A DNA stretch of 37,120 bases from Candidatus Poseidoniaceae archaeon (GCA_938084455.1 CALKDX010000061.1:1-37120), one strand, 5' to 3'; shown: positions 20,533 through 37,119, counted from the first letter of the stretch. The notes: generated by a model from the sequence alone, not told the origin. Numbers and translations are program-made.

Positions 20533-20589
20533 GCGTGGGCACAGGAGAGGGAGGCTTTAGACAATACGCCGTCGTGTCAGTCGGCTTCA

Positions 20590-23500
20590 TCAGCCAGTTT
20601 GACGTGAATCATAACGAATCGGAGAGGAATCGCCCCGAACCCCGTCTTCTTCATCGTCGCGAACTTCGAACCAGTCCACCATCCAATCACCATCGGTATC
20701 CCAGTTGGTCGGATCTGTTCCCTCAGCAATGTGATCGTTGTCGTAATCCAAAAGATACCAGCCATACTCATGTTCACCAACAGCACGAACCGGCGCTGTG
20801 AATGGCGAACCAGAGTAGTATATCTCCCATGCATCGGTCCAATTTCCGGCCAGATGGACCTCATCATCACCCGCATCAAGAACAAGGAAATTAGAGTCCT
20901 TGTCATCAACAATGTAGGCAAAACGGATGTCATTGGAGAAGGATTTGTCCATCTTTAGATAATTTTCCGAACTGGAACCTGTTTCATCGAGGCCCAGCAT
21001 GGCAGCTCTGAATTGCCACCATTCTAGGACAATTTCGCCGTCATAGATGAGGCCACTCAAGCGAACTGCATTTGGTGATGAGAATTCACTGTCCGTTACG
21101 GCATAGAATTCTTGGAAATTGGTGTACGGTTCATAGACACAACCTGCTCCGCTGCAATCCCAATTTCCATCTTGATCAGGGTCCAGATTCGCATCCAAAG
21201 GATCTGCTGGGTCCAATGTGAACCAGGTGTAGGTCAAGTCTGGACGGCTGAGAATACCATCAGCGCCTTGTTGTGAAAGTGGCAAGCAAGAATTCGTATC
21301 GGTGTCGCATTGACCTCCTGTCGCAGCATCAATCCAAACCACTCGGATTTGAAGGAATGAACTGAAGTTGTCATTTGATTCGTTCCAAGCCTTGGCATAC
21401 TCATACCAATCGGGTATCATGTCGCCATCTGTGTCGTTATCGCTCGGGTTAATCCCGTACTTGAACACCTCACGACCGTCAGAGAGATTGAAATCTCTGT
21501 CGTGAGCAACAACAGCACCATTAGAGATTGTGGTTGTGTACGAGATGCTGTCACCGTCTGAATCATTGAGGTCTGGACGAGTATCGTTATCCCATTCCAT
21601 CCAATTGGTGAACGGCAAGTCACCGATGCCTGGTTGGACAATGGAAGAAGATGGCGTGAACACGCGCCCATCCCATGTGCCTTGGCCAGCAGGTATGTCG
21701 AACGCAGAGCGGTCGTACCATCCATCCCGGTCACCGTCGTAAGCCACATCCCAAGGATTGATTGGGTTAGAAGCCCAATGGTTGATTGTAGATGGGTCTT
21801 CCATCCCATACACGGCATAGCAGAATTCCCAACCATCAGGTATCCCGTCGCCATCAGAATCTGCGCTTGTTGGATCGGCGACTCCGATGAGGGTCCGGTT
21901 GAAATTGTCGAAATTGTTCTGGTTAATCTTGGTCATCCTTGCCGCACTTTCCGGGGACTTTTCGATGAAATCATCGTAGAGGGCATCTTTTGCTTGAACG
22001 AGAGTCATACCGGTTTCTTCCATGTAAGCTGACATGGCGTCTTCGCCGAAATCAATGATGCCTAAAGCTGCAGGAACGGTGGTTCGTTCGCTGTATTTGC
22101 CCCAGGTTCTTGACTCCCATTCGCGTAAATTCGTGAATTGTTCTTCTTCGCTGATCGAGCCGTCGTTATTGCAATCGAAGCTGTCCCCGTCCGTGTCAAG
22201 ATTGACGTCATTGTCAATCAGGGGGTTCATGCTCCAGCGATTTTGATCAAGGTCCCATTCTGTAAACCAATATTCGAATCCATCGTACATTCCATCGTCG
22301 TCCGTGTCCGGGTTGGTCGGATCCGTCATGCCCAAAAGAATAGAGATAATTGCATTGGGCGGTTCGCCTTGCTGCCACCCATTGAAGTCTGTGAGCAACC
22401 GCTTGCCTCTGGTTTCTTTTGTGATCAGGATGTTAAACACCCGTTGTGCTTTTTCCGAGGCTTGCTGGGCATCGCCGTCAATGTGGAGGAGTGGTGCGTC
22501 GCTGGGTTGATCAATGCCGTTATCGGGATTGGTGGTCGCTAAAGCAAATTCCTGTGCATCGATGAGTCCGTCTTCATCACCATCGAAATTACCATCCCCA
22601 GCAACGAGTGGATTCAAGGTCCATGTCTCGGCTGAAAGGTTCCAAGCAGTAAACAGATGCTCAATTCCGTCAATCATACCATCTCCGTCCGTATCGACGT
22701 TGTTTGGATCCGAAGTCCAGCCACTGATGTTAATCTGTTCTTGCGTCAAGAAAGAGCCGAACGATTCTGTTGTCGAGATGCTTGGCCACTGTTGAAGCGC
22801 AAATGCCGATCCGACCGTGGTGACAAACCATTGAGGAGAGGAACGATTGGCGTCGGTCTCGCTGTATTCGGGGGCAATGGCGTTGTACTCTTCCCAATTC
22901 GCCATCCCGTCTTCATCTGCGTCCTGCCAGCGATCGCTTGCATCAAGCGGGTTCAGAGTCCATGCATCGGCTAGAATGTCCCATCGAGCAAACCAAATCT
23001 CCCATCCATCAGGCATCCCATCGTTGTCGGAATCCGCATTGAGTGGGTCCGCTGCACCCTTGCTAGTGAGTGGTTGTGGTGCAGTAACTGCTCCGGAGGC
23101 ACGCTCGCCAAAGGTGCCTTCTGGCGCCCCGTAGTCACCGATATTTTGGAATAAGTCAGTGCTGAAACCGTCTGGGAGTGGTTGACCAGTCAGGGTTGTG
23201 TTGGTGCTGAACAAGTCAGAACGAACGTGGAATTCAAGCCAGTTGACGAAGGCCTCGTTCTCTTCAAGAACGCCATCTCGGTCGATGTCATAGCCGTCCC
23301 CGTCTGGGTTTTCAAATAAATCCGAACCGTTGAGTGGGTTCACGCCTCTCCGCGACGGGTCCCAGTCACAGGCTCCGTCTGACTCCCACCCGTCTGGCAA
23401 GGAATCACCGTCAGAGTCGACGTTGTTTGGATCTGCAGTGGACCAAGATTCTGCCGCCTCCGCAGTTTCCCCGTGAGTTTCGAGCAACAGGCCTTCCATT

Positions 23501-26343
23501 GCTGCACCCTTTACCAATGACCATTGGTATTCACACAAATTTGGCAAACCATCTCGGTCTGCATCCCAATTTGCATCATCTGCTCGGTTTGGGTCGAGTG
23601 ACCAATTATTGCCGCCGGTGAAGCTCGAACCGACCCATCGGCGGTGAGTGATTTCCCATCCATCAGGCATACCGTCACCATCGGAATCGAAATTCGTCGG
23701 GTCCGTACCAAGGTCACTTGACGACAGGCCGAGGTAAGTAGCGTTGGCAGCAGCGCCCGTAGCATCATCGCACACGTACTCTAACTGCACGGTATAATGG
23801 CACCAAAGGTTGCTTTCTTGGTAGAAAAATCCGAAGTACTCCTCACCATCACCGAGCCCATCCCCATCGGTATCACCGACGCGAGGGTTGGTCGAGTTGT
23901 AACCTTGAGTGGTTGTTTTGACGTACCTAAATTCGTCCAAGTTCGTCCACAGGCGTTCTAGGAAACCATCGTCCAATTGATCAAGGTCCAGCCCGTCCCC
24001 ATCCATATCAAGAAGGGCATCCCAGGGATCTGTCGGGTCAAGACCATTGGCGACTTCCCAGCCATCCGGCATGCCATCGTTATCAGAATCGTTCGCACCT
24101 GGATTCATCAGTTCCAGATTGGCATACATCCCCGGTGCAGAGCCAGCAAGGATGGTGATGTTGCCCTCATCGGCAAACCAATTCAGCGTGGTCAACTCAC
24201 CATAGATGGCCTCTTGGTTTTGCAGACCATACACTGCTGTGTAATCACCTGTGATGGCCCATAGGCCCTTTTGGGACCCAATAAGAAGTTCGTCACCGGT
24301 TGGGAAAATGGAGTGGATGTTGTTGAGTTCTCGAGTGAATTTTCCTTCGAGACCTGGGTGTTCGAGCAATCCGCTATGGCTGATGGAATTGCTGAGCAAG
24401 TCCATACGATGCAAGCCCGATGGCGTTCCAAACCAGACCACTTGAGCGTTGTCTGAATTCGGCCCATCGATGACCAAAGTTCGAACTTCTGCTGGATTTG
24501 CAACCATGCCGAGGGAAAGCGATCTCAATTCATCAATATTGGTTGGAATTGGAGTGGTTTCCGTGGTGTAATGGAACCGCCATGTAGCTGTGAGGTCGTC
24601 GCGGACGGTTGCCGTTTCTGCAGTAATCATCCCACGGTCGGTCCCAACAATCAGCATGTTGGTGCCACCACCCACAGCACCATGCGCAATGGATGTCACG
24701 CTGGCGTTGGATTCACTAAGCAGGGAAGTGAGCGTGGCTGATAGAGCATAGGTATCGACAATACTACCTGCTGAATTGATTTCAATGACCGCACCTGCTC
24801 CAGCATCGCCTAATGCCACTAATTGCTGGTTTTGTCCTTCAATGTCGAGCATTGTAAGTGCGTTCAATCCATCGCCCATGCTCCATGACCAGCCGCTTAA
24901 TTCAGAGAACGATCCGTCGGCTTGCAGTGGCGCCACCGCAAGACCTGCGCTTGTTGCTAGCGCAAGAGCAAAGGCATCGTCTTCATTCTTCAAAAGCAAT
25001 GAATCATGCAGTTCTACCCCTTGTGGCATCCATTGATCTGTGTTTGAACCGAGGTCCATGTCAAGGAATGTCAAGCCGTAGCGCGTGGTCACATAGACAT
25101 TGGTTCCATCCGTTTCGATGTCACGTATGTCGTAATGCATGACGCTCAATTCTTCAACTGGGGCAGTGAACGAAAGGGGGACCATTGCACTCGTACCCTC
25201 TCCGGCGCCATAAGCGACGGTCTTCAATCCGGCAATGACAGTGTTGCCATCGTCTTCGTGAACGAGGTATTCTTCGAGTGTGGACAAGGCTTCACCCAAC
25301 TTGATTGCAGTCAGGGTACGGCTTACATCCGGCGATACACCTCCGTCACGGTTGGCATCCCAGCCATCTTGGTCGTGATCGATTAAAGCGTTGGTTCTGT
25401 TCAGTGGGTCGAGTCCGAAGTGAACCTCCCAACCATCTGGTATTCCATCTCCAAAAGAAGGGAAGAGTCGTCGAACTGAGAAACCGTCCCAGTGGTATCG
25501 GTCTGAATCATCGAGGAGGGGGTCGGTTCCGAGCCACAAATCTTCATCGACGACATTCGTGGCGTTGGTTGTGCACGCTGAAAGTAAATTGTCAAAGGTG
25601 GCGTTTGCACCGGTTGGAATGAAAGGCCAATTGAGTAAAATGGAGCCTTCTGGCAGGGTCGCAGAACACCAAAGTCCATCCAATTCAGTGGTGTGATTTG
25701 CTGGTGCCCCTTGTCTGTATTCCTCGGGAGAGGTGAACCGTTCGGTGACCGAGAGCACACCGTCACGGTTGACGTCAAATCCGTCTTGGTCGGGGTCATC
25801 TGTGAGGTCACTGGCATTCAATGGATCGAAAGCAGGACAAACATATCGGAGTGTGAAGATGTCGAACCCACCCGTACGGTGGCACATGTAGGCTTCGTAG
25901 CCATCCGGCATACCGTCACCGTCAGTGTCAGCAACTCGAGGATCGAGGTAACTTCGGTCCCCTTCAGCGTTAACGGTGCCGGTCAAGCCCCGTGGGAATC
26001 CAGAAGCAGTGCAGTTCGCTGGGTATGGCCAACAGTATTCCTCAGTAGCGTTCAAACCGTCTTTATCAAAATCGACGAAGGCATCTGATGCGTCTTCACG
26101 ATTCATACCCGGTATGTACACATCCCGACCATCGACCGTGGTCCAATTCATCCATTCTTCGAATAAATTTTCATGGACATCCGGTATTTTGTCACCGTCC
26201 GTGTCTGTCGAAGGCGGACGTTCCCCCTCTGTGGTTTTAGGATGGACGCTGGAAACCGAGGAAATCGCAGGAAATTGCGACATAAAGACGAGGCTCGCCA
26301 CAACAGCAAGCGTGGTGAGAAGAGTGGTTAGGCTTCGTCGCAT
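20590..26343 (-). CDS. Giant secreted protein with about 14 thrombospondin type 3-like calcium repeats
   Basis: About 1917 residues from ATG 26343 (the frame extends to a TTG at 26361, but MRRSLTTLLTTLAVVASLVF is a clean signal peptide). Acidic modules of the form DxDxDGMPDGWE recur at least 14 times, for example DTDGDGMPDGYE, DSDNDGMPDGWE, DSDGDGIPDGWE and DTDGDMIPDWYE. These are thrombospondin type 3/EF-hand-like loops that bind calcium and stiffen extracellular proteins. Spacers often begin with LDP or NPL plus WD. Residues about 400-745 lack repeats and look like a beta-propeller (IRDIETDGTNVYVTTRYGLT). No C-terminal membrane helix or lipobox is seen; the protein stops after a final repeat at RYDSRQTG, so anchoring must be by another partner. 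It leads the four-gene surface cluster and is probably co-transcribed with the next giant gene. Confidence 0.9.
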   Translation of the reverse strand: MRRSLTTLLTTLAVVASLVFMSQFPAISSVSSVHPKTTEGERPPSTDTDGDKIPDVHENLFEEWMNWTTVDGRDVYIPGMNREDASDAFVDFDKDGLNATEEYCWPYPANCTASGFPRGLTGTVNAEGDRSYLDPRVADTDGDGMPDGYEAYMCHRTGGFDIFTLRYVCPAFDPLNASDLTDDPDQDGFDVNRDGVLSVTERFTSPEEYRQGAPANHTTELDGLWCSATLPEGSILLNWPFIPTGANATFDNLLSACTTNATNVVDEDLWLGTDPLLDDSDRYHWDGFSVRRLFPSFGDGIPDGWEVHFGLDPLNRTNALIDHDQDGWDANRDGGVSPDVSRTLTAIKLGEALSTLEEYLVHEDDGNTVIAGLKTVAYGAGEGTSAMVPLSFTAPVEELSVMHYDIRDIETDGTNVYVTTRYGLTFLDMDLGSNTDQWMPQGVELHDSLLLKNEDDAFALALATSAGLAVAPLQADGSFSELSGWSWSMGDGLNALTMLDIEGQNQQLVALGDAGAGAVIEINSAGSIVDTYALSATLTSLLSESNASVTSIAHGAVGGGTNMLIVGTDRGMITAETATVRDDLTATWRFHYTTETTPIPTNIDELRSLSLGMVANPAEVRTLVIDGPNSDNAQVVWFGTPSGLHRMDLLSNSISHSGLLEHPGLEGKFTRELNNIHSIFPTGDELLIGSQKGLWAITGDYTAVYGLQNQEAIYGELTTLNWFADEGNITILAGSAPGMYANLELMNPGANDSDNDGMPDGWEVANGLDPTDPWDALLDMDGDGLDLDQLDDGFLERLWTNLDEFRYVKTTTQGYNSTNPRVGDTDGDGLGDGEEYFGFFYQESNLWCHYTVQLEYVCDDATGAAANATYLGLSSSDLGTDPTNFDSDGDGMPDGWEITHRRWVGSSFTGGNNWSLDPNRADDANWDADRDGLPNLCEYQWSLVKGAAMEGLLLETHGETAEAAESWSTADPNNVDSDGDSLPDGWESDGACDWDPSRRGVNPLNGSDLFENPDGDGYDIDRDGVLEENEAFVNWLEFHVRSDLFSTNTTLTGQPLPDGFSTDLFQNIGDYGAPEGTFGERASGAVTAPQPLTSKGAADPLNADSDNDGMPDGWEIWFARWDILADAWTLNPLDASDRWQDADEDGMANWEEYNAIAPEYSETDANRSSPQWFVTTVGSAFALQQWPSISTTESFGSFLTQEQINISGWTSDPNNVDTDGDGMIDGIEHLFTAWNLSAETWTLNPLVAGDGNFDGDEDGLIDAQEFALATTNPDNGIDQPSDAPLLHIDGDAQQASEKAQRVFNILITKETRGKRLLTDFNGWQQGEPPNAIISILLGMTDPTNPDTDDDGMYDGFEYWFTEWDLDQNRWSMNPLIDNDVNLDTDGDSFDCNNDGSISEEEQFTNLREWESRTWGKYSERTTVPAALGIIDFGEDAMSAYMEETGMTLVQAKDALYDDFIEKSPESAARMTKINQNNFDNFNRTLIGVADPTSADSDGDGIPDGWEFCYAVYGMEDPSTINHWASNPINPWDVAYDGDRDGWYDRSAFDIPAGQGTWDGRVFTPSSSIVQPGIGDLPFTNWMEWDNDTRPDLNDSDGDSISYTTTISNGAVVAHDRDFNLSDGREVFKYGINPSDNDTDGDMIPDWYEYAKAWNESNDNFSSFLQIRVVWIDAATGGQCDTDTNSCLPLSQQGADGILSRPDLTYTWFTLDPADPLDANLDPDQDGNWDCSGAGCVYEPYTNFQEFYAVTDSEFSSPNAVRLSGLIYDGEIVLEWWQFRAAMLGLDETGSSSENYLKMDKSFSNDIRFAYIVDDKDSNFLVLDAGDDEVHLAGNWTDAWEIYYSGSPFTAPVRAVGEHEYGWYLLDYDNDHIAEGTDPTNWDTDGDWMVDWFEVRDDEEDGVRGDSSPIRYDSRQTG
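20645..26209 (-). repeat. Dispersed calcium-loop coding repeat within the giant secreted gene
   Basis: A degenerate DNA repeat of about 35-50 bases, read on the plus strand as variants of CCATCNGGCATNCCGTCNCC followed by GTCNGAATC, recurs at for example 21833, 22990, 23388, 23653, 24060 and 25902. It encodes the DxDxDGMPDGWE loop. Copies differ at synonymous positions and spacing is irregular (roughly 200-700 bases), so this is a protein-domain repeat, not a tandem DNA array. Confidence 0.8.
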
Positions 26344-26575
26344 AGGAACACCGGGGGCCAAGCATAGGCTTCGCTAACCTTCAACCTCAAATCGACACTT
26401 ATGAGGATGATGGAACGATGTTCGGACATTTCTGAATTATGCGGCTAATATTTCAATCCCAATCACATCTAAAAACCGGTTTGAATCAAACATAGCAACT
26501 GTCAAATGAGCGTATACACATCAAATCATAGCGCACTGTTCAAGTTCCGAACGCGCTCAGGCCGAGTTGAACCCC
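26344..26575. promoter_or_regulatory. Divergent intergenic region between the giant calcium-repeat gene and the YycJ-like gene
   Basis: This 232-bp stretch is the largest non-coding gap in the window and must hold promoters for both directions. It is AT-richer than the neighbours. TATA-like stretches are ATATTTCAA near 26447 (GAAATATTAG on the minus strand) and GCGTATACAC near 26509-26519 on the plus strand, about 60 bp before the YycJ-like start. No tRNA or stable long hairpin is apparent. The element positions are guesses from sequence resemblance. Confidence 0.4.
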
Positions 26576-27394
26576 ATGTCAATGAGCATCACACACCTTG
26601 GAACCGGAAGTCGAGGCAACTCGACGCTCTTGGAGACAAAGGGTGCAAAAGTGCTCATTGACCAAGGATTTAGTGGAGCTCAGTTAGAGAAGCGACTCAA
26701 TCGTCTGGGGATTAAACCAACAGAAATCGATTGTGTTTTCATCAGCCACCACCATGGTGATCACGGCGGTGGGGCTTGTATTGTTCAGAAGCGTTGGGGG
26801 TTGCAAGTGCTTGCCAATGAGCGCACTGCACAGGAATTAGGCCTGAATCCAGAGTTGACCTCGTACTTTGAGGCGCTTGACATGGTGCGAGTGGGTGATG
26901 ATTTAGCCATCCTCCCCGTCCCTGTCCCTCATTCAGGTTCCGATAACGTTGCTTTCGTAGCCAGCCATGGAGGTGAACGGGCAGCTATTATCACAGATTT
27001 AGGCTCCTGGACCGACGAACTTGTCAACCATGTTCGCGGCTGTGAGCACATCGCTATTGAAGCAAACTATGACCATGACCGACTCATGAACGGCCCGTAT
27101 CCATATTCGCTTAAAGATCGGATCAGTGGCAGAGGAGGCCACCTTTCAAACGACCAAACAGGCGCCTTCTTGGCACAAGTCTGCACGGCGGCTACCAGAA
27201 GCATAAGCCTCACGCATCTGTCAGAAAAGAACAACCGTCCGCACCTCGCGGAATCAACTGTCCTTTACCACATTGACGAGGTGTTCTCCGGTGACATCTC
27301 CATCTCGCTTCAAGACGGTCCAGAAGTGACCCATTATGTCGGCCAAACAGACGACGAAGCCTCGGTTGAGGCGAACGATTCCGTCAAAGCATGA
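26576..27394 (+). CDS. YycJ/WalJ-like metallo-beta-lactamase-fold hydrolase
   Basis: About 272 residues from ATG 26576 (MSMSITHLGTGSRGNSTLLE); a TTG at 26567 and ATG at 26582 are alternatives. The metal-binding motif HHHGDH (His58, His60, Asp62, His63) is intact. Later motifs match the YycJ/WalJ subfamily: ITDLG with a metal Asp, IEANYDHDRLMNGPYPYSLK, GRGGHLSNDQ and a terminal LTHLSEKNNRPHLAE. Bacterial YycJ has been reported as a 5'-3' double-stranded DNA exonuclease linked to mismatch repair; others in this fold act on RNA or small molecules. It lies 47 bp upstream of the pilin trio on the same strand, but there is no evident functional link. Family call strong, substrate unproven. Confidence 0.9.
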   Translation: MSMSITHLGTGSRGNSTLLETKGAKVLIDQGFSGAQLEKRLNRLGIKPTEIDCVFISHHHGDHGGGACIVQKRWGLQVLANERTAQELGLNPELTSYFEALDMVRVGDDLAILPVPVPHSGSDNVAFVASHGGERAAIITDLGSWTDELVNHVRGCEHIAIEANYDHDRLMNGPYPYSLKDRISGRGGHLSNDQTGAFLAQVCTAATRSISLTHLSEKNNRPHLAESTVLYHIDEVFSGDISISLQDGPEVTHYVGQTDDEASVEANDSVKA

Positions 27395-27441: not shown

Positions 27442-28527
27442 ATGGTACCGAACCCTGTGTCACCCGTGAACACAGAAGCCTGCTTCGTTTCGCGCCCATC
27501 TCTGCGAAGGGATGACCGCGCGGTAAGCGAGGTATTGGGCGTGGTGATGTTGCTCGCAATGGTCATCACCATCATGGGCGGCGTGTGGATTTTCCTTAAC
27601 CCATACTTGAGTGATTTTGAAGACAACACAAATTGGAACAGTGCAGTTGGAATTTCGGAGCGGTTCCAAGACCGAATTGATGTTGCTGGAGCAGCACCAG
27701 AAGGCACTGGGATACGTCATACACTTGCTCTACAGGCCACATACATTCGCCCAATAGACAAGGTCGAAACTTGGACCATTGCTGCGGACCTCGTCCCCAA
27801 TGAAGAAATCACGATTCAGCACTTGAATCAATCGACCATCGGTATTTTTGCGGTGAATGAGACGGCTCGATCCGTTTCCATAGATTCCCCGCTTGGTTCC
27901 GAAACCATCGCTTTTTCCGCCTCTCATGAAGAAGTGCCAATTCAACACAACGCATCAAGGGCCCATTGGATGATCATCACCGTGCACGATGAGGAGAACC
28001 AACCAATTCATCGTAGCCTGAGTTATGCCCTATCCGGAATTCAAATCACGACATCACTCGGGCAAGGTGAGCATGAACTCGCCCTAATGAACAACGCAAG
28101 GGTCGAACATTTTCCAAACGAACCATGGCGGGTGACCTCCTACCCGAGCGTGGGCCTAGACCAACTTGTTGATGGAGAATATCGGCTTTCAATGATGCTC
28201 TCAGATGTGACCATTAACGGCTCGCTAGGCACTGGGAACAACATAGGAATGAACATGCTGTCTTTAGGCCCGATGACACTGTTCACCGGTGAAGCCTACA
28301 ATCTGCGGTTTACCGTGATCAATGAGCTAAACGACCTCATCACTCCACAATACCACGACCACTGGCTGGATGAATACAACCTCAACCGTGCCTCAGGCAC
28401 CCTTGACACATTCGTAGGCTATGGACCGTATGAACGGGCCAGTGGGGCTGATGGATTCACCATCGATACCCATGGAGTTCCACTCTACCTTGAAGTGGAT
28501 GTTCAACGCGTGGAGGTCAGCCGATGA
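27442..28527 (+). CDS. Archaeal type IV pilin-like protein (first of operon)
   Basis: 361 residues. A class III (prepilin) signal is seen at 22-33: RRDDR followed by AVSEVLG, then a hydrophobic helix (VVMLLAMVITIMGGVWIFL, about 34-52). In this family a prepilin peptidase cleaves before the hydrophobic segment, and the mature helix packs into the filament core. The SEVLG motif is typical of archaeal pilins. The remaining 300 residues form a beta-rich exposed domain, much longer than a typical pilin (100-180 residues). A strong ribosome-binding site (AAAGGTGAAGG) precedes the ATG. Its TGA overlaps the next ATG by four bases (ATGA), so translation is coupled. No PilB/PilC-like assembly ATPase or membrane platform is in the window. 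Confidence 0.85.
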   Translation: MVPNPVSPVNTEACFVSRPSLRRDDRAVSEVLGVVMLLAMVITIMGGVWIFLNPYLSDFEDNTNWNSAVGISERFQDRIDVAGAAPEGTGIRHTLALQATYIRPIDKVETWTIAADLVPNEEITIQHLNQSTIGIFAVNETARSVSIDSPLGSETIAFSASHEEVPIQHNASRAHWMIITVHDEENQPIHRSLSYALSGIQITTSLGQGEHELALMNNARVEHFPNEPWRVTSYPSVGLDQLVDGEYRLSMMLSDVTINGSLGTGNNIGMNMLSLGPMTLFTGEAYNLRFTVINELNDLITPQYHDHWLDEYNLNRASGTLDTFVGYGPYERASGADGFTIDTHGVPLYLEVDVQRVEVSR

Positions 28528-30755
28528 AATCGAACCTGCAGCGGGATGAAGATGCAGTTTCGGCAGCAGTTGCCACAGTCCTCATGTTTGGAGGCGTTCT
28601 CTCCATTATTGCAATGATGATGGTTTCCATGATTCCAGTCATTGAGGAACTCGAAGGATCAATTGAGCGGCACGACATGTCGGCCCAGATGTCGCTTCTT
28701 GCCCACCAAACTTCGGCGTTGAGCGAAAAAGGAATGCCTGGCGACTCGACATCAATTGACCTCATCCCCGTTGATGGAAGCCTTGAATGGCAGCACACGC
28801 AAAGCGGCATGTGGTATGCTGCAACATGGCATGAAGACATGTCCTTCAGAATGCGTGGTGCGCTTAATTTCGATGATGAACTCGAGGTGCGCCATCCAGA
28901 AACGGTCAACACTGCATTGTGCATCGATGACCTCAGATTGGGCCCGGCAAACCCCTACTATTACACCGTCCCAAGTTGGGCTGAAAAGGTCATTTTCACA
29001 GTCATGCCGGGCTTGGCAATTCCCCTAGGACCCGTTGATGTTGATGTCTTGAGCAACGGAGAGACGATTCAGAACATCAAACTCATGGTCGATGGCCTTC
29101 ATGAAATGGACGCTCTCAATCTTGATGCATTTACCCTTGCCTCCAGCCATGAACTCAATGTGTTCATCGAGCGAGGCGCAGGAGGTGCGACGGTGGTCAC
29201 GCCAAACGATGCGAGTCCAATTGACAAAACTGGAAGATCTTGGTCAATCCCAGTACCTGTCGGTACAAGCCAACTGCACGTGATCAGTGAAGATGCGAAT
29301 CAAATCAGCATCACCAACGAAACAACAACTTCAACCTCCTATGCCCTCCCAAGTGGACAGAACCAGATGGGTGTTGAATTCACTCATGTCATCTCACGAA
29401 CCACGCCCGGTGTCATCCATCTTTCAACCAGCGATGAATCAAGGCTCATGCTCCAAACTTCGACAGACGCTTCTCGCGGAATTTTTGCAATGCCCAGTCA
29501 AGATGGTCAATACCTCGGCCATTCGTTCTTGACCCCCTCACTCGACGGTGAGATGATGTTCACGAACCCAGGAGAATCCTCAGTCACCGTGACTTGGCGA
29601 GGCGGCGGCCTCTCGGTTGCACCCAACCAGAGCCTCGGATTTGAGTGGCCTCCAGCTGGCGCCAATGGTGCACCTTTGGTGGAAGCCGAAGGAGACGTGT
29701 TCCTCACTTGGAGAAGCGCTGAAAGCAACCAAGGTGCAAACACATCAGGGTTGTTCATGCTCGCTGCAGACGACACTGGAGCAAGTTCGGGGCAGGCCCA
29801 CACCATCCACACGGAAGCATCGGAGATCGAACAAACTCTGCACCTGATGCGTGGTGGGCAGACGCTGTCTTGGAACATGACTGGTTCGACCGAAGCGAAC
29901 GGCACAATGTTCGGAGAAACGGAATCTGCAGTGGTCAACCTAAGCCAAGGTACATCCTCTTTGGCTGTCACCGACGGTCACACACTTCGTTTGACTCGCA
30001 TCAGTGGTGATCACGGGCTTTTGCAACTGCGCCATGACGGAGCCGAACGCTGCCTAAGCATTGGCGTCGAAGCGAGCGGTTGGATTGCCATGGACCTTCC
30101 TTGGACCACGATGAGTGGTCGCGGCGAAATTGATGTGAAGAACGCATGGAAGCAGGGAACCCACCCGTCAAGCATGCAACTCACCTTGATCGGTGGCATT
30201 GGGGTTTCAACCCACGCAACCATAGGAACCGTTTGGGGCTTCCATCTGTCAAGGTTAGCCTACGGTTTTTCCTCATCAATCATGGGCATGGAAGTAGCTT
30301 ATTCTGGTGGTGCGGTGCTTACCAATCATCCAGAATTTGAGTCGTATGTGGTCGTTGCACCCTCGGACAGAGGTGGTCCAGGTCCGAGATTTGCCGCCAC
30401 GGTGCCAGCCCTCCACCCTACCGCAAGCAGCACCACTGGAGCGGGTGCAATGCACCTTGACATTGAACTGGTCGATCGCTCCTCCCTCGCATCAACAACA
30501 GCTTACGAAATTCGTAGAGGTTGGTCTGAGCCCTACGGCACCGCAATCGCAACTGCGTCTGCAGACGGGCTCGAATCAAGTGAAGATTGGACCATCTATC
30601 CGGGTCAAATCAATTTGTTGACCGACTATGTGGGATGGGTCCCAGACCCGAGTTATGGAACAAGTGAAGCAGTGTGGCATACAAATGGAGAAGCCATTCA
30701 ATTTACGCTTCAAATGTCATCATTGAATGTTCACATGACGGAGGCGATTTCATGA
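28524..30755 (+). CDS. Giant pilin-like protein (second of operon)
   Basis: 743 residues. The N-terminus MKSNLQRDEDAVSAAVATVL carries a class III-like signal: an arginine, two acidic residues and AVS leading into a hydrophobic helix (MFGGVLSIIAMMMVSMIPVI). The remaining 700 residues are beta-rich with many Ser, Thr and Gly and little Cys, suggesting stacked Ig-like or jelly-roll domains, for example VTWRGGGLSVAPNQSLGFEW. This is far larger than known filament subunits, so it may be a tip adhesin or a cap rather than a repeated subunit. It overlaps both neighbours by ATGA. The hydrophobic helix lacks the Glu at position 5 seen in many bacterial pilins. Pilin-like call is inference from the N-terminus and operon. 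Confidence 0.8.
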   Translation: MKSNLQRDEDAVSAAVATVLMFGGVLSIIAMMMVSMIPVIEELEGSIERHDMSAQMSLLAHQTSALSEKGMPGDSTSIDLIPVDGSLEWQHTQSGMWYAATWHEDMSFRMRGALNFDDELEVRHPETVNTALCIDDLRLGPANPYYYTVPSWAEKVIFTVMPGLAIPLGPVDVDVLSNGETIQNIKLMVDGLHEMDALNLDAFTLASSHELNVFIERGAGGATVVTPNDASPIDKTGRSWSIPVPVGTSQLHVISEDANQISITNETTTSTSYALPSGQNQMGVEFTHVISRTTPGVIHLSTSDESRLMLQTSTDASRGIFAMPSQDGQYLGHSFLTPSLDGEMMFTNPGESSVTVTWRGGGLSVAPNQSLGFEWPPAGANGAPLVEAEGDVFLTWRSAESNQGANTSGLFMLAADDTGASSGQAHTIHTEASEIEQTLHLMRGGQTLSWNMTGSTEANGTMFGETESAVVNLSQGTSSLAVTDGHTLRLTRISGDHGLLQLRHDGAERCLSIGVEASGWIAMDLPWTTMSGRGEIDVKNAWKQGTHPSSMQLTLIGGIGVSTHATIGTVWGFHLSRLAYGFSSSIMGMEVAYSGGAVLTNHPEFESYVVVAPSDRGGPGPRFAATVPALHPTASSTTGAGAMHLDIELVDRSSLASTTAYEIRRGWSEPYGTAIATASADGLESSEDWTIYPGQINLLTDYVGWVPDPSYGTSEAVWHTNGEAIQFTLQMSSLNVHMTEAIS

Positions 30756-31228
30756 ATCACAACGCACTTCGCAGAGATACAAACGCTGCTGCCACCGAAT
30801 TAGGTTACATCTTCACATTTTTGCTTGGCGTATTGTTGCTCACGATGTTCAGTTTGTGGGCTTGGGACATCGAAACCGCTACGCGCGAACGATGGAATGA
30901 AAATGCAATCCAAGCCAATATGGATGATTTGGCAGCAGCAGTCGAACGCGCTGATGAAGCGAGTCGAATGGGTGCTGTGGATTACGCAGAGCGAGTGGAA
31001 TGGAGACTTACCGAAGCAGATGAGTCACGCATGACCATTATCTTGACCGATACCAACATCGAACTGATTCATGACACTGGAGATTTAGACACCAATGTCT
31101 CAATCTCAGGAACCGGTGCTGGAAGTCATGAAGGGACACTCACCCTCGCTGGAATCGATAGCATTTGGGTTGTGCATTACCAAGGCGTCACATCAATTGA
31201 ATACGATCGCCCTCAACACCAGCAGTAG
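30752..31228 (+). CDS. Small pilin-like protein (third of operon)
   Basis: 158 residues from ATG 30752, which overlaps the stop of the giant pilin (ATGA). The reading frame extends further upstream to 30674, but that part overlaps the preceding gene and lacks a signal. The N-terminus is MNHNALRRDTNAAATELGYI followed by a hydrophobic helix (FTFLLGVLLLTMFSLWAW): an RRD signal, then a TELG motif similar to the SEVLG of the first gene. The rest is short, with a helical EAASRM-type stretch and a beta domain ending in DRPQHQQ. Its length is typical of a pilin or pseudopilin. The TAG at 31226-31228 lies two bases from the convergent STAND gene's stop. Confidence 0.82.
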   Translation: MNHNALRRDTNAAATELGYIFTFLLGVLLLTMFSLWAWDIETATRERWNENAIQANMDDLAAAVERADEASRMGAVDYAERVEWRLTEADESRMTIILTDTNIELIHDTGDLDTNVSISGTGAGSHEGTLTLAGIDSIWVVHYQGVTSIEYDRPQHQQ

Positions 31229-31230
31229 GC

Positions 31231-33756
31231 TCAACGGCCCATAACTGCGGCGTGTACTTGGGCCTGAACCTCACGCATGCGAGACTTAGCACCAAGTTCT
31301 CGGAACACAGCAAGCGCCCGTTGAAGGTATTCCATGCGCCGTGGTTTGTCCGGAGCGACACCACCAAGGCGAGACAGGAGTTCACCAATTTGCATACGTA
31401 AATCATTGGCTTCAGCGATTACAAGAGCCTCGCGATAATGTTCCATCGCATCTTCCGCTCTGCCAGCGTCTTGAACAACTTCGCCCAAGAGGATGGTGAT
31501 TTCAACAAGAGAAAGCAAATCACCTGCGACGCTCATCGTTTCCAGTGCAGTCGAGTAGTGGTGAGATGCAACGTCGGCGTCTCCAACTTTCGCATAATAG
31601 CGGCCAAGAACCGCCTGAGCGCGAGCGTGAAGAACGGCGTCTTCGCCTCCATCGGTTCGTTCAAATGCTTCGAGTGCATGGTCACGAGCGCGGTCAATTT
31701 CACCTAGGTCAAGGAATGATCGGGCTAGGATGAGTTGTGAACCGATGAGGTCCGTACCATCGGATTCCTTGAGGATTGTTTCGACTTCTCCGTACGCTTC
31801 AAGGGCTTTTACACGGTCATTTTTCCGCCTCAACAAGTAGCCCATGTTGTTGTAGGAGCGAGCTGCTCCCTTTGGGTCCTCAAGTTGTATGAACTTCTCC
31901 AATGCTTCCCTGTGCATCTCTAATGCTTTGTCTGCATTGCCTTGCTTCAACGAAATATCTGCTAATGCCGCCAATATTTCGGCTTCAACAAGGGTTGATT
32001 TAGAGCGTGCCGCAAGCGCTTGGGCTTGGGCAAAGACCTCTTCGGCTTCTGTAAATCGTCCGAGAAGAACGAGAACTTCGCCCCTTAGTTGAGAAACACG
32101 CATGAACACCTCTGCTGGAAGATCAGAGCCATCAATTGATTCCATGAGTGGTAAAAGTTCCATGTGTCCTTGAGAGACAAGCGTGCGGCCATCCGTTGAA
32201 ATGAGCGTGGAAGCGGCTTCATGATTGTCAGAACGAATCAAGTGGAAAATATGTTCAATGGTCAATTCGGAATTCGGGCTTTGCTTTGCATACCAATTGC
32301 AGCATTTGGCATGGAACGATTTGCGAGTTGTTTCATCGAGGCTGCGGAGTAAAAACTCCCGAATCAAATCGTGGACATCATAAGTTTCTGCATCTGCCTG
32401 TCGAGCAAGACCTTGTTCAACGAGGGAATCCAATTCATCGGTATCGAGATCTTGCTCCGCAAGCGCAGCCAATTCTACTGGTTCTCGGTAAATGGCAAGC
32501 GCAGACAACACTCGCTTTTGTTCAGCACTCAATTTAGAAAAGATTTCCACAGTGACATAATTTTCCAACGTTTCGTGGAAAGCACCAGCCGACGCACCAC
32601 GGTTGATCAGTTCAAGAACGAGGGGGTGACCTCGAGAAAGACCGTGAATGTGGAGCCACTGCTCCTCTGCGAGTTCATCAAAACTGCTCAACAACTTCCT
32701 GCCCGCATCGGAGTCTAAACCATCAAGAGGTAAAACGAGGCTGGCAATTCGTCCTTCGGCGTCTTTGGTGGGCACCACAGGTTTGAACGAACGTGAAAAG
32801 AGGACAAGGGCTATTTCTTCCTCGCTCCCTAGCAGGGCAATGGACATTGCCTGGAACGTTTGGTGAAGCGTTGCATCTGCCACTTTATGGAAATCATCGA
32901 TCACGATCAGTGAAGGCGTCCCTTCCAGAGCATCAACCAACAAGCGGGCTGCATCTGCGGGTTGGGGAACCGGTGTCGCAGCAAGATAGTCCGCAAATGT
33001 GGAATTCCCTATGTTCGCCAACCAGTCTGCAACCGATTCAAAAAACGAACGTGAACCTTCCCAATCTTGGCAGCGATGGTAGAGCAAGTTTCGCCGATGC
33101 ATGAACCGTTCAATCAATTTTGATGCGACGGTGGTTTTTCCGATTCCAGCAATACCAGGAACCAGCAACGTCGTCGCACGGGCTTCGATCAGGCTCGCCA
33201 TGTTGTCGAGTTCCTTTTCGCGTCCGTAGAAATGTCTCAGTCGAGGTAGGTCGCCGAGCGAAGTGACGAGTTGTTTCTCGACATGCTTTGACAAATCTCG
33301 TTCAATTAAATCCGCGGAAAGCGAACGAGCATCAAGAACGCAATTGTCATCCATGTACCGAATGATGTCCACCGGGCGCATCGAAAAGGGTAGTTTTTCA
33401 TTGATTTCACTCAAGGTGGAATGGATTGTTTGGCCATCTTCGAGGATTGCCCGCAATGGAAAAGAGCGCAGACGTCGCCAAGTCTCTTCACTGAGGTTCA
33501 TACCGGGGTCTGTCAAAAAATAGGCCTTACGCTTTCTTGAAACTCCTTTGACGTGGGCTTGTCGTTCGATCAGCAAGCCTTGGTCCTTCAAACCGGCAAT
33601 GGCTCTGGGAACGTTCGAGCGGGCAATAGCAACGGCGTTAGCAATGCCCATTTGCGACAGAGCGAATGGAACTTCAACGCTGTTTTTAAAATCCGTGTAA
33701 TCCAACAAGTGGAGAAGGATTCGTTCCTGAACCCCCGGCTTTGGATGCGCTGCCAT
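31231..33756 (-). CDS. STAND-type ATPase regulator: winged helix, NTPase and TPR repeats
   Basis: 841 residues with three parts. Residues 1-85 form a winged helix-turn-helix (QMGIANAVAIARSNVPRAIA helix pair, RKRKAYFLT wing). Residues 175-420 are a P-loop NTPase of the STAND/AAA type, with Walker A GIAGIGKTT at 201-209 and Walker B SLIVIDDF at 282-289, followed by a LVLFSRS sensor segment. From about 540 the protein is a long array of TPR-like helix pairs (GRFTEAEEVFAQAQALAARS, GNADKALEMHREALEKF, GEIDRARDHALEAFE). This layout resembles MalT-like regulators: ligand or protein binding by the repeats controls ATP-dependent oligomerisation and DNA binding. It is 57 bp downstream of a surface gene on the same strand and tail-to-tail with the pilin operon. 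A defence role for such proteins is known elsewhere, but regulation is more plausible here. Confidence 0.88.
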   Translation of the reverse strand: MAAHPKPGVQERILLHLLDYTDFKNSVEVPFALSQMGIANAVAIARSNVPRAIAGLKDQGLLIERQAHVKGVSRKRKAYFLTDPGMNLSEETWRRLRSFPLRAILEDGQTIHSTLSEINEKLPFSMRPVDIIRYMDDNCVLDARSLSADLIERDLSKHVEKQLVTSLGDLPRLRHFYGREKELDNMASLIEARATTLLVPGIAGIGKTTVASKLIERFMHRRNLLYHRCQDWEGSRSFFESVADWLANIGNSTFADYLAATPVPQPADAARLLVDALEGTPSLIVIDDFHKVADATLHQTFQAMSIALLGSEEEIALVLFSRSFKPVVPTKDAEGRIASLVLPLDGLDSDAGRKLLSSFDELAEEQWLHIHGLSRGHPLVLELINRGASAGAFHETLENYVTVEIFSKLSAEQKRVLSALAIYREPVELAALAEQDLDTDELDSLVEQGLARQADAETYDVHDLIREFLLRSLDETTRKSFHAKCCNWYAKQSPNSELTIEHIFHLIRSDNHEAASTLISTDGRTLVSQGHMELLPLMESIDGSDLPAEVFMRVSQLRGEVLVLLGRFTEAEEVFAQAQALAARSKSTLVEAEILAALADISLKQGNADKALEMHREALEKFIQLEDPKGAARSYNNMGYLLRRKNDRVKALEAYGEVETILKESDGTDLIGSQLILARSFLDLGEIDRARDHALEAFERTDGGEDAVLHARAQAVLGRYYAKVGDADVASHHYSTALETMSVAGDLLSLVEITILLGEVVQDAGRAEDAMEHYREALVIAEANDLRMQIGELLSRLGGVAPDKPRRMEYLQRALAVFRELGAKSRMREVQAQVHAAVMGR

Positions 33757-33813: not shown

Positions 33814-36800
33814 TCATTGGTCTGGCGTGTAATTTGGATCTGGAACCCAGCTGTTGGTTGCTTCATCCCATAGCCAACCTGGATGGTTGGATGCTGCTGG
33901 GGTAGCAGCGACAGCTGCAGCCACTGGAGCAGCAGCCTCTGTTTGAGGGAGGTCCACAGGGTTTTGCTTGGCTTTGGCCCACGCATAGGGGTCTTCAGCA
34001 GCTTGTGCTTCATTTTCAGCCATTTGTGCGTCGTCTTCAAACTCTTCATATTCCACTTGGAAGAAGAATGCACCAGCACCGAGCAAGGCGATAATGCCTA
34101 CAATCGCACCGATGATCAACAGCAGGTTACTGCTTCCTGATTCGGATGAAGCCGAACTGATTTGGAATTGAGTATCCGAAGCGGTACCGGGTGCAGAGTA
34201 CACCTGCCCATCCATTTCAAAGATGATTGATGCCTTATCGAGACCTGACAACTGATTGCTTGCGATGTTCATTTCCCAATTGCCATCAGCGCCAACTCGG
34301 GTGGAATTCAAGCGAATCCCCTTTGCATCGTCAAACCGTGCAGCGACAATGCTGTTCGGCAGACCTTTGCCGCCAAAGACGGCTGGATCCGTAGCCGTGA
34401 TTGGCCCTGAATCAGTACGCTCAGCGCTGAAAGCGACGGAAACTACAACGACATTTACCGTGTATGAGTAAGCCACTGAATCATAGGAATCACGAGCCTC
34501 GAACATCAATCCGACCAAGGACCATTCAGAAATCTCTGAGGTTGGTTGAACCCACGGTGGGTTGTAGGTCGCTACGCCTTGAGCGTTGATTGAAACATAA
34601 TCTGCATAGAAGTCATCATCGAGGTTGCTGGCGTCGTCAAAGATATCAAACAGCAAATCGTTTTCAGCCTCTCCTGTACCATCTGGATCAGAGAAGAAGT
34701 TTGTCAAATCGATGACTGCACCTTCTCCGCAACGGTCGATGGCGTTTGAGTTGGCATCACAGAACACAGTGATGGTGTTCGTCCATCCTTCGGTGATGAA
34801 GATGGGGGCAACGTTATCCGCATCGGTTGGATTGTCAATTGTGATTCGAATTCGCTGTTCTATCGAGTAATCTTCACCATCATACGCTTTGATGACCAAT
34901 TCATACTGTTGATCATGGATCAGTTTCGATGTATCCCATGTTGTGGCCCATGCACCATTAGGGGCAAAGGTTGTCACAGGGTTTGGCCCGTTGTTGAGCA
35001 TTAGACTGCTTGCCAAATCTTGAATTTGTATTTCCACCCGGGTCACTTGACCATCGTTGTCTCGAGCAACCCCCTGAATCAGTTGCTCCTCGGATGCTCT
35101 CAAGACATCGCTGTTGATTGGTTCACTGATTTGGACAAATGGTAAGGCGTTGTCATTCAAGATAGTGAGGGTTCGTGTTTCAGCATTGCATACACCGACG
35201 AGATCGATACAGAAATCACTGTCTGCGGCCCAGATACTAAAGGTGTAGGTTCCGCTTGCGAGTTCTTCAAACTGCCAGTCATACGACCATGCAGTGGAGC
35301 CCTCAATTGCGAAGTGGGAGGTGTAGCCGTTTGGACCGTTGATATCGAACCAAATGGATTGGATATCACTGCCCCAGGTCCCACTGTACGGGTCGCTGGC
35401 TGAGCCGGTGAAGGTGACCTTGTTGTTGTCATGAGAGCTACCGTCATTCGGAGTTTCGACCAAGATGGTTGGTGCTACGAGGTTCAATTTGTACTTGCGG
35501 ACTTCAATTGGTGAGTAGTCCAAGCCGTCGTAGGAACGAACACGGAAGGTGACATCGCCTTCACCCTCAGGATGGGCAGACAAATCCCAATCGAACGACC
35601 AGGACTTGAACGGGTGGTTCGAGAGGGTGATTTCACCACCAGCTCCGGAGGTATCGATTGCTGAATTCCACTCGGATGATCCCGGTGGTTGGACCTCAAC
35701 GCGCTTGATGAGGCCGAATTGTTTCTCATAGGCCACAATATCAAGTGGATATGGTCCTGCTAGACCGTCCCATGCCGTGCCAGTGAGAGTGACAGTGGTG
35801 GCAAACGATGCACCATCACCTTGAGTCACTGCGACTGAGGGTTTGAGGTTATCAAGGCTGATGATGTCTTCAATTGGCCCGTTCAAAACGAAGTCAAATG
35901 ACTTGGTGCCCTTTCCGAACTTGTAGGCGTTGACGCTGTAGAACGGCAGTTCACGGTTCCCTGTTTCACAGTTGGAAGTGTCTTGAGAAGACTGAGATTG
36001 ATCGCCCTCGTCAACAAAGGTATCACCATCGTTATCATAACCATCAGAGCAGGTGTTTTCATCCATGAATTCAGTGATCCCTGGCGATACTGTGACCTCA
36101 ACGTTGGACTCACCCACAAGGTGGTTCCAATTTCTGTCAAGGTAGAAATCACTTGGGAGCGAAATTTGTGGAGTGAAGCCAAAAGCGTCGGTCTGCAACG
36201 TATAGAGAGGCAGTCCGGTGGCATCGCTGATGACGACTGTTGCATCCGCAACGTTGCTGTTCTTAGCTTTCACTTGGTATCGGACAAGTTCACCTTCGCG
36301 AACTTGCGATCCCCATGCTGAATTTTGGTTTTGGACGTGGACCTTGCTTGCGTCGAAATTCTGTAAATCAGCAAAGGAAAATACCGTTGAGTTGTCGACT
36401 ACCTCGAGGGCCATTGGCATGAAGCGAGGGGGCATGACTGCGGTTGATGGGACTTGCAGGCATTCATCGAGGACGTATGGGCATTCAGCGCCAAGCCATT
36501 GAAGCGATACTGGATATGAAAGCGTATCGTCGTTGCCGTCGCCATCGTAATCCGTAGGGATTGCATCTGGGATGTATTCTGATTGAACGGTGACTCGGGA
36601 TTCAGTGATGTTGTACACTTGTAAAGCGTTGGTGTATGAGTTGCCCGAGAAGTAAGCGATGGACCCGTACTTGTTCCCATAGTTGTCATCGTACATCGAG
36701 ATGTTTGCTGCGAAGCCGCCAACCTCCACAGTGTTGCGTTGTGCGTTGAAAATACCGCCCTTGATTCGGAAACCATCACCAGCATTGTTCGTGATGGTGT

Positions 36801-37119
36801 TATCGTAAACTGTCGCGGAGGACATGAACACGTGAACCGCTGGACAAGCGAAGTCGCCACCGTACATTTGTGAACTACATGTGCCGGTGTTGTTGCTGAT
36901 TTGATTGTTAGCAAGGTAGAGGCGAGCAGCTGTTGGTGTTGGCACGTTCCATCCTTGGTCGTTGAAGTGGTATTCCCCGATCAAAACTGCTTCTTTAGCG
37001 GTGTCTTGAATGGTGTTGTTTTCAGCAACGACATCAGAGGTTCCGTAGATCCACAATCCATTCCAACCACCAATGGGCCCGATCTGGTTGTTGTGGATGT
37101 GGACGGTCGAGGAGCGAAT
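33814..37119 (-). CDS. Beta-helix surface protein, C-terminal 1100 residues (5' truncated by window edge)
   Basis: The frame is open to the right edge, so the N-terminus lies outside; the TTG at 37056 is not a real start, because the sequence before it (STVHIHNNQIGPIGGWNGLW) is already beta-helix. About the first 150 visible residues show parallel beta-helix rungs (VVAENNTIQDT, YLANNQISNNTG, TVYDNTITNNAGDGF). A calcium-loop region (DENTCSDGYDNDGDTFVDEGD) and several Ig-like domains follow. A TM helix (LLLIIGAIVGIIALLGAGAFF) lies near the C-terminus. The cytoplasmic tail is acidic, then Ala/Pro-rich, and ends in HPGWLWDEATNSWVPDPNY. Likely a cell-surface adhesion or glycan-binding protein, NosD/pectate-lyase-like in fold only. 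Co-directional with the STAND gene 57 bp downstream. Confidence 0.88.
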   Translation of the reverse strand: MRSSTVHIHNNQIGPIGGWNGLWIYGTSDVVAENNTIQDTAKEAVLIGEYHFNDQGWNVPTPTAARLYLANNQISNNTGTCSSQMYGGDFACPAVHVFMSSATVYDNTITNNAGDGFRIKGGIFNAQRNTVEVGGFAANISMYDDNYGNKYGSIAYFSGNSYTNALQVYNITESRVTVQSEYIPDAIPTDYDGDGNDDTLSYPVSLQWLGAECPYVLDECLQVPSTAVMPPRFMPMALEVVDNSTVFSFADLQNFDASKVHVQNQNSAWGSQVREGELVRYQVKAKNSNVADATVVISDATGLPLYTLQTDAFGFTPQISLPSDFYLDRNWNHLVGESNVEVTVSPGITEFMDENTCSDGYDNDGDTFVDEGDQSQSSQDTSNCETGNRELPFYSVNAYKFGKGTKSFDFVLNGPIEDIISLDNLKPSVAVTQGDGASFATTVTLTGTAWDGLAGPYPLDIVAYEKQFGLIKRVEVQPPGSSEWNSAIDTSGAGGEITLSNHPFKSWSFDWDLSAHPEGEGDVTFRVRSYDGLDYSPIEVRKYKLNLVAPTILVETPNDGSSHDNNKVTFTGSASDPYSGTWGSDIQSIWFDINGPNGYTSHFAIEGSTAWSYDWQFEELASGTYTFSIWAADSDFCIDLVGVCNAETRTLTILNDNALPFVQISEPINSDVLRASEEQLIQGVARDNDGQVTRVEIQIQDLASSLMLNNGPNPVTTFAPNGAWATTWDTSKLIHDQQYELVIKAYDGEDYSIEQRIRITIDNPTDADNVAPIFITEGWTNTITVFCDANSNAIDRCGEGAVIDLTNFFSDPDGTGEAENDLLFDIFDDASNLDDDFYADYVSINAQGVATYNPPWVQPTSEISEWSLVGLMFEARDSYDSVAYSYTVNVVVVSVAFSAERTDSGPITATDPAVFGGKGLPNSIVAARFDDAKGIRLNSTRVGADGNWEMNIASNQLSGLDKASIIFEMDGQVYSAPGTASDTQFQISSASSESGSSNLLLIIGAIVGIIALLGAGAFFFQVEYEEFEDDAQMAENEAQAAEDPYAWAKAKQNPVDLPQTEAAAPVAAAVAATPAASNHPGWLWDEATNSWVPDPNYTPDQ

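Follow-up and report, generated by a model that had tools for sequence, protein, structure and literature searches.

In euryarchaeal type IV pili of the clade 2 type, the minor pilins are ~250-550 amino acids (aa) long and belong to arCOG02911 (Makarova et al. 2016, PMC4858521), and pilins that are encoded away from their engine have been documented (PMC4858521). The pHME505 cluster of Haloferax mediterranei has the order ATPase-TadC-DUF7287-DUF7288-DUF7261-DUF7266-DUF7289. In haloarchaea, loss of pilB-pilC lowers adhesion (PMC6491452), and PilB paralogues partly use one another's pilins (PMC6491452; PMC4858521). Here we describe three consecutive pilin-like genes at positions 27442-31228 of a 37,120-base stretch of DNA from Candidatus Poseidoniaceae archaeon (GCA_938084455.1 CALKDX010000061.1). 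This stretch, the window, is the whole of contig C61 from a 1.93-Mb genome of the order Poseidoniales (Marine Group II) that is 85% complete and is labelled G000; relatives' genomes carry G-numbers, loci L-numbers, contigs C-numbers and genera g-numbers. Very probably, the triplet represents the pilins of an operon that has been split in two and that encodes a euryarchaeal DUF7289/DUF7266 (PilB-TadC) type IV pilus. It is probably a set of minor pilins, and the pilus is probably adhesive.

The Marine Group II archaea are abundant, uncultured inhabitants of the surface ocean. Two main surveys of Poseidoniales genomes explain their attachment by the archaellum, flotillin and, in one survey, thrombospondin genes (PMC6461757, PMC6336850); the archaellum is treated there in terms of adhesion or motility, and type IV pili are absent from the discussion in both, save for one reference title. 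The system that we describe is known in kind; for the Poseidoniales, a search of the open-access literature, with subscription papers outside its scope, retrieved no earlier report of such a pilus.

Signals and families of the three genes

The triplet consists of gene 1 (27442..28527, 361 aa as called), a DUF7289-type minor pilin, gene 2 (28524..30755, 743 aa), an enlarged DUF7289-type pilin, and gene 3 (30752..31228, 158 aa), a DUF7266-type small pilin, all on the + strand. The three proteins have the same N-terminal layout, in which an R/D-rich stretch is followed by A/VSEVLG, A/VSAAVA or A/AATELG, respectively (the slash marks the predicted cleavage site), and then by a long hydrophobic helix. 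The class III (prepilin) signal and helix of gene 1 occupy positions 27517..27600 (+) and read RRDDRA/VSEVLGVVMLLAMVITIMGG, while the signal of gene 3 reads A/AATELGYIF. An earlier note on this DNA had described these three reading frames with the same sizes, signals and helices, and had pointed to translational coupling through ATGA stop/start overlaps. Both descriptions proved correct: the overlaps lie at 28524..28527 between genes 1 and 2 and at 30752..30755 between genes 2 and 3 (both +), and the 4-base overlap was retained in 59/61 and 57/62 loci, respectively.

The locus was conserved throughout the order. Gene 1 was found in 56 of the 63 genomes of the genus, the remaining seven being incomplete drafts, and the triplet was present in both families of the Poseidoniales. 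As far as the contigs extend, all order-wide loci showed an identical gene order, with an MBL-fold hydrolase gene, genes 1, 2 and 3, and a convergent gene for a STAND/TPR protein. The synteny across Poseidoniales that the earlier note had proposed to examine was therefore confirmed, with the three genes co-occurring in a constant order and the prepilin peptidase site preserved in their homologues.

Conservation of the signals was measured in 25 diverse homologues of each gene. The residue at position -1 was A, G or S, and the motif at positions +1 to +8 was almost invariant, with S+2 and G+6 each present in all 25 homologues of gene 1, and A+1, T+3, E+4 and Y+7 each in 25/25 homologues of gene 3. 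Since these positions are nearly invariant across homologues, the three pilin-like signals cannot be ascribed to chance. Genes 1 and 2 showed the conserved -1 residue, the motif and the helix that together characterize a class III prepilin signal, and the likeness to archaeal type IV pilins claimed in the earlier note was thereby upheld. The signal segment of gene 1 matched Pilin_N with 20.6 bits, under the cut-off of 25.2. Solved archaeal pilins aligned to gene 1 at the signal/helix segment only (E 0.1-0.6), and direct sequence searches of the PDB gave nothing convincing past the N-terminal signal.

The family assignment was computed from profile matches of the homologues. DUF7289 was matched by 23 of the 25 gene 1 homologues (best 1.6e-6) and by 24 of the 25 gene 2 homologues (best 3.8e-8), and DUF7266 was matched by 6/25 homologues of gene 3 (best 2e-6). 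In addition, the positional counterpart of gene 3 in locus L188 scored 31.8 bits against DUF7266, above the cut-off of 27.6. Because the N-termini of pilins are alike, PilA-type pilins were scored against the gene 1 profile as a control. They reached 2e-5 or worse, and matched over the N-terminal 30-40 positions only, whereas the first pilin of L188 matched the same profile at 9e-15 across positions 4-219, and the pilins of L185-L187 matched it in the ectodomain too. On this profile evidence, genes 1 and 2 are probably kin to DUF7289 and gene 3 is probably kin to DUF7266. By description, genes 1 and 2 are also arCOG02911-like. The AlphaFold2 model of gene 1 (predicted local distance difference test, pLDDT, 78) showed N-terminal helices followed by an all-beta ectodomain, which the model of gene 2 displayed as well. 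The earlier note had taken 100-180 aa as the usual size of a pilin, but this was the wrong yardstick: measured against the published range for minor pilins (PMC4858521), gene 1 lies inside and only gene 2 is large, falling outside owing to an insertion. The locus further shares with the clade 2 pilus (PMC4858521) the FlaFind-type signal, an all-beta minor pilin that tends to be duplicated and to vary in length, an ATPase/TadC module that is separable from the pilins, and stand-alone PilA major pilins.

Engine, peptidase and major pilins outside the window

No assembly ATPase or TadC platform is encoded within the window, and the earlier note had supposed that one would be borrowed from elsewhere. 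Indeed, the genome contains three ATPase/platform sets, located on contigs C2 (archaellum-like), C31 and C112, and a fourth, weaker match to an ATPase domain on C105. We paired the triplet with the C31 set, which encodes both a secretion ATPase and a TadC platform, on the basis of the gene order of relatives and the phyletic pattern. The C31 engine comprises an ATPase of 508 aa and TadC proteins of 339 and 531 aa, followed by two small DUF7288/DUF7261-like proteins of the QVHILEML and QMLLATG types. Relatives of the C31 ATPase from outside the order shared 56-58% identity with it and formed one clade with it (support 100/99). In L185, L186 and L187, which come from the same class, the operon runs DUF7289-like pilin, DUF7266-like pilin, ATPase, TadC1, TadC2, DUF7288-like and DUF7261-like protein. 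The operon of L188 has two DUF7289-like pilins, then a DUF7266 pilin with the ATPase behind, in the order seen in the window. The DUF7289-like pilins upstream of C31-type engines were 330-392 aa long. These operons thus hold the same ordered components as the Poseidoniales set, but are unsplit and lack the enlarged gene 2. The simplest reading of the gene orders would be that the Poseidoniales split one operon, with the pilins now at C61 and the engine at C31; the two modules have become separated within one lineage while both are still conserved. The H. mediterranei cluster likewise shares the DUF7289 and DUF7266 pilins, the ATPase, TadC and the DUF7288/DUF7261-like proteins, but it is a single cluster in which TadC is one long gene, whereas the Poseidoniales have two loci and two DUF7289 pilins. 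DUF7287, present in H. mediterranei, was not found in the Poseidoniales set.

Of the 22 genera, 15 contained members of the gene 3 family, and the C31 ATPase was found in the same 15. Genera g12, g13, g16, g18 and g20, which belong to the second family and have smaller genomes, were without the triplet and without all three T2SSE-type engines, and no prepilin peptidase orthologue was found in their tested genomes. These genera have apparently undergone a complete loss of the type IV filament machinery.

A prepilin peptidase was identified by orthologue search at C26:4814-5806. Its frame of 340 aa, 331 of which aligned, contains both Asp motifs (MDHKERK and GGADAK), and the PF01478 profile does not score it in this genome. 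Orthologues were present in all triplet genera tested, as well as in the archaellum-only genera g14 (1/2 genomes) and g21. Furthermore, PilA-like pilins scoring above the Pilin_N cut-off, which could serve as major pilins, were found on C108, C112 and C29. Stand-alone PilA-like genes together with a minor-pilin set match the published plan of such systems (PMC4858521).

A separate observation concerns the pilin on C29. A frame of at least 2469 aa (L234:1-7410) encodes a giant surface protein that has a membrane stretch near its C-terminal end, and the frame reads on, uninterrupted by a stop codon, through a complete PilA-like pilin (DDDA/AVSPVIATILMVAITVV). This could be either an adhesin-pilin polyprotein that a prepilin peptidase might split, or a case of an internal start.

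The enlarged pilin, proposed assembly and rival explanations

Gene 2 was of similar length in both families (~680-750 aa in one and ~736-795 aa in the other), and its size is for this reason not an assembly fault. In the AlphaFold2 model (pLDDT 81, predicted template-modelling score 0.81), a helix at residues 9-69 is followed by the all-beta ectodomain. The size difference was traced with a 391-aa homologue (L201) that aligned in two stretches only: its residues 2-65 fell on positions 4-67 of the gene 2 profile and, weakly (E 0.02), its residues 200-309 on positions 566-670. Between these stretches, ~500 profile positions correspond to ~135 residues of L201, which gives an insertion of ~365 residues. 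This beta-rich insertion, at residues ~134-509 (approximately 28923..30050, +), lies between Cys133 and Cys510, which are invariant and usually the sole cysteines. Because the two bracket the insertion, they are likely to be joined by a disulfide where it begins and ends. Our preferred reading of gene 2 is an ordinary pilin of the DUF7289 type into which an all-beta module has been inserted. We also looked for tandem repeats within the insert and rejected them, as profile comparison was negative apart from one weak hint (137-215 versus 312-400, 67%).

The earlier note had proposed a pseudopilus or adhesion complex with an unusually large tip or spine. The idea that giant size makes this a special pseudopilus found no support, as gene 1 has a length usual among its relatives and gene 2 owes its length to the insertion. 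Nor is size alone new, since even larger pilin-like proteins exist in other Thermoplasmatota (L191, 1242 aa; L193, 1145 aa; L194, 1190 aa). They share with gene 2 a pilin N-terminus and a very large ectodomain and are encoded beside or near ATPase-TadC genes, but they are longer and their ectodomains differ. The one at L193:11631-15065, beside ATPase-TadC, has a HINT/intein-type domain soon after the pilin helix (PT-HINT, 1.4e-15, residues 135-260). A position of gene 2 at the pilus tip is plausible; a spine role is not, because the likely filament subunits are the separate PilA-like genes.

In the assembly that we propose, the preproteins would enter the membrane through their hydrophobic helix, and the C26 peptidase would cut before VSEVLG, VSAAVA and AATELG. 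The C31 ATPase and its two TadC proteins would then extract and stack the pilins, and the triplet would act as a minor-pilin complex priming or capping a filament of separate PilA-like main subunits. With its beta-sandwich module, gene 2 would have a large projecting head, the most likely use of which is attachment to particles, algae or other cells. A role in adhesion is suggested by the haloarchaeal pilB-pilC counterparts (PMC6491452), by the enlarged head of gene 2 and by the ecology of the group.

Several results weigh against this reading of the triplet. The window's own copies scored below the DUF7289 cut-off of 27 bits (gene 1, 22.3; gene 2, 18.7), and gene 3 of the window had no Pfam match to DUF7266. 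When the profiles of genes 1 and 2 were compared, the alignment covered the N-terminal 56 residues only and showed no homology of the ectodomains, the kinship of which is supported only indirectly, by the shared DUF7289 matches and by homologues matching both profiles. Fold searches returned only generic jelly-roll/beta-sandwich matches with template-modelling (TM) scores <0.2 by query length; with matches so generic and scores so low, we rejected them as a basis for claiming a binding function. The strict FlaFind-like pattern ([KR][GA] at -2/-1), a check of the kind the earlier note had proposed, was found at the site in 11/25 homologues of gene 1 but in none of those of genes 2 and 3 (25 each), where position -2 was mostly D/E/S/N/H. 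This failure of genes 2 and 3, and the fact that gene 2 shows homology to known pilins mainly in its N-terminal part, could indicate that the triplet encodes ordinary N-terminally anchored surface proteins merely resembling pilins. We regard this as very improbable in view of the strict conservation of the signal motif, the co-conservation of the genes and the presence of homologues in pilus ATPase/TadC operons.

The phyletic pattern on its own also cannot choose the engine, since C112 has the same 15-genus distribution as the triplet and the losses may have been one event. This second non-archaellar engine (L048) has an ATPase of 412 aa and a platform divided between two short TadC genes, of 193 and 244 aa, and the partial cross-use of pilins by haloarchaeal PilB paralogues (PMC6491452; PMC4858521) offers a precedent for its assembling the triplet, or for the triplet being common to both engines. 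Relatives of C112, however, scored 158-166 bits in BLAST against the C31 ATPase, compared with 459-617 for the engines beside DUF7289/DUF7266 pilins. C112 falls in a separate clade and its locus has its own PilA-like pilin gene ~6 kb away, and we consider its involvement quite improbable. The archaellum on C2, to which the triplet might be an accessory, is a homologous engine present in the same genome, but its occurrence across genera is mismatched: g17 and g22 kept the triplet while an archaellum-type ATPase was generally not seen in their genomes, and g14 and g21 showed the reverse. We therefore rejected the archaellum as a partner, a relationship that seems hardly credible. It is also unlikely, if worth serious thought, that the pilin-like anchors belong to a non-filamentous membrane complex, such as a secretion pseudopilus or a sensor/adhesin patch with no long fibre. 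All three proteins are minor-pilin-like, no obvious small major pilin is present in the triplet or the C31 locus, and gene 2 would appear too bulky for a repeating subunit; yet the genome has stand-alone PilA-like pilins, a documented arrangement of such systems (PMC4858521).

With the pilin set, the C31 engine and the peptidase named, the split-operon pilus becomes a second and concrete candidate for attachment, the clear-cut distribution of which over the genera can be tested with size-fractionated metagenomes. A more far-reaching proposal, which we put forward tentatively and with some doubt, is that it is a dedicated adhesion pilus of the Poseidoniales, apart from the archaellum and C112, in which the tandem DUF7289 pair with its order-specific, disulfide-bracketed beta-sandwich insert would form, at the pilus tip, a large adhesin for the surfaces of algae or particles. 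If this were true, the pilus would account for at least part of the attachment to particles that has been put down to the archaellum, and g12, g13, g16, g18 and g20 would have lost such attachment altogether.

Gene starts and neighbourhood

Gene 1 contained an in-frame TGA in G010 and G020, the proteins of which are 98-99% identical to that of the window. In G020 (L103) the TGA takes the place of codon 7, which reads TCA in the window (27460-27462). Because this TGA sits near the called start in such close relatives, the reading frame places the true start, at least in G010 and G020, at GTG codon 9 or later, and the window gene probably starts at GTG 27466 or later as well, giving a protein of ~353 aa or shorter. 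For gene 3, an alternative reading of 184 aa begins at a GTG further upstream.

The syntenic MBL-fold hydrolase gene (26567..27394, +) ends 47 bases upstream of gene 1 and is possibly co-transcribed with the triplet; nothing in this analysis ties it to a pilus role. Downstream, the operon ends at the convergent, strictly syntenic gene for the STAND ATPase/TPR protein (31231..33756, -). A viral origin of the locus found no support, with 0 PHROGs matches. Very large conserved proteins flank the pilin operon (15124-26361; 33814-37119, -). They comprise a protein of 1802 aa, one of 1923 aa with a TSP3 repeat (20590-26361), and one of >1101 aa that combines beta-helix and Big_7 domains with a membrane helix at its C-terminus. 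In G180 (contig C4, L092), a 2237-aa relative (42%) of the TSP3-repeat protein is encoded directly upstream of a C31-type ATPase in the same direction, a placement that points to a possible link between this surface protein and the pilus.

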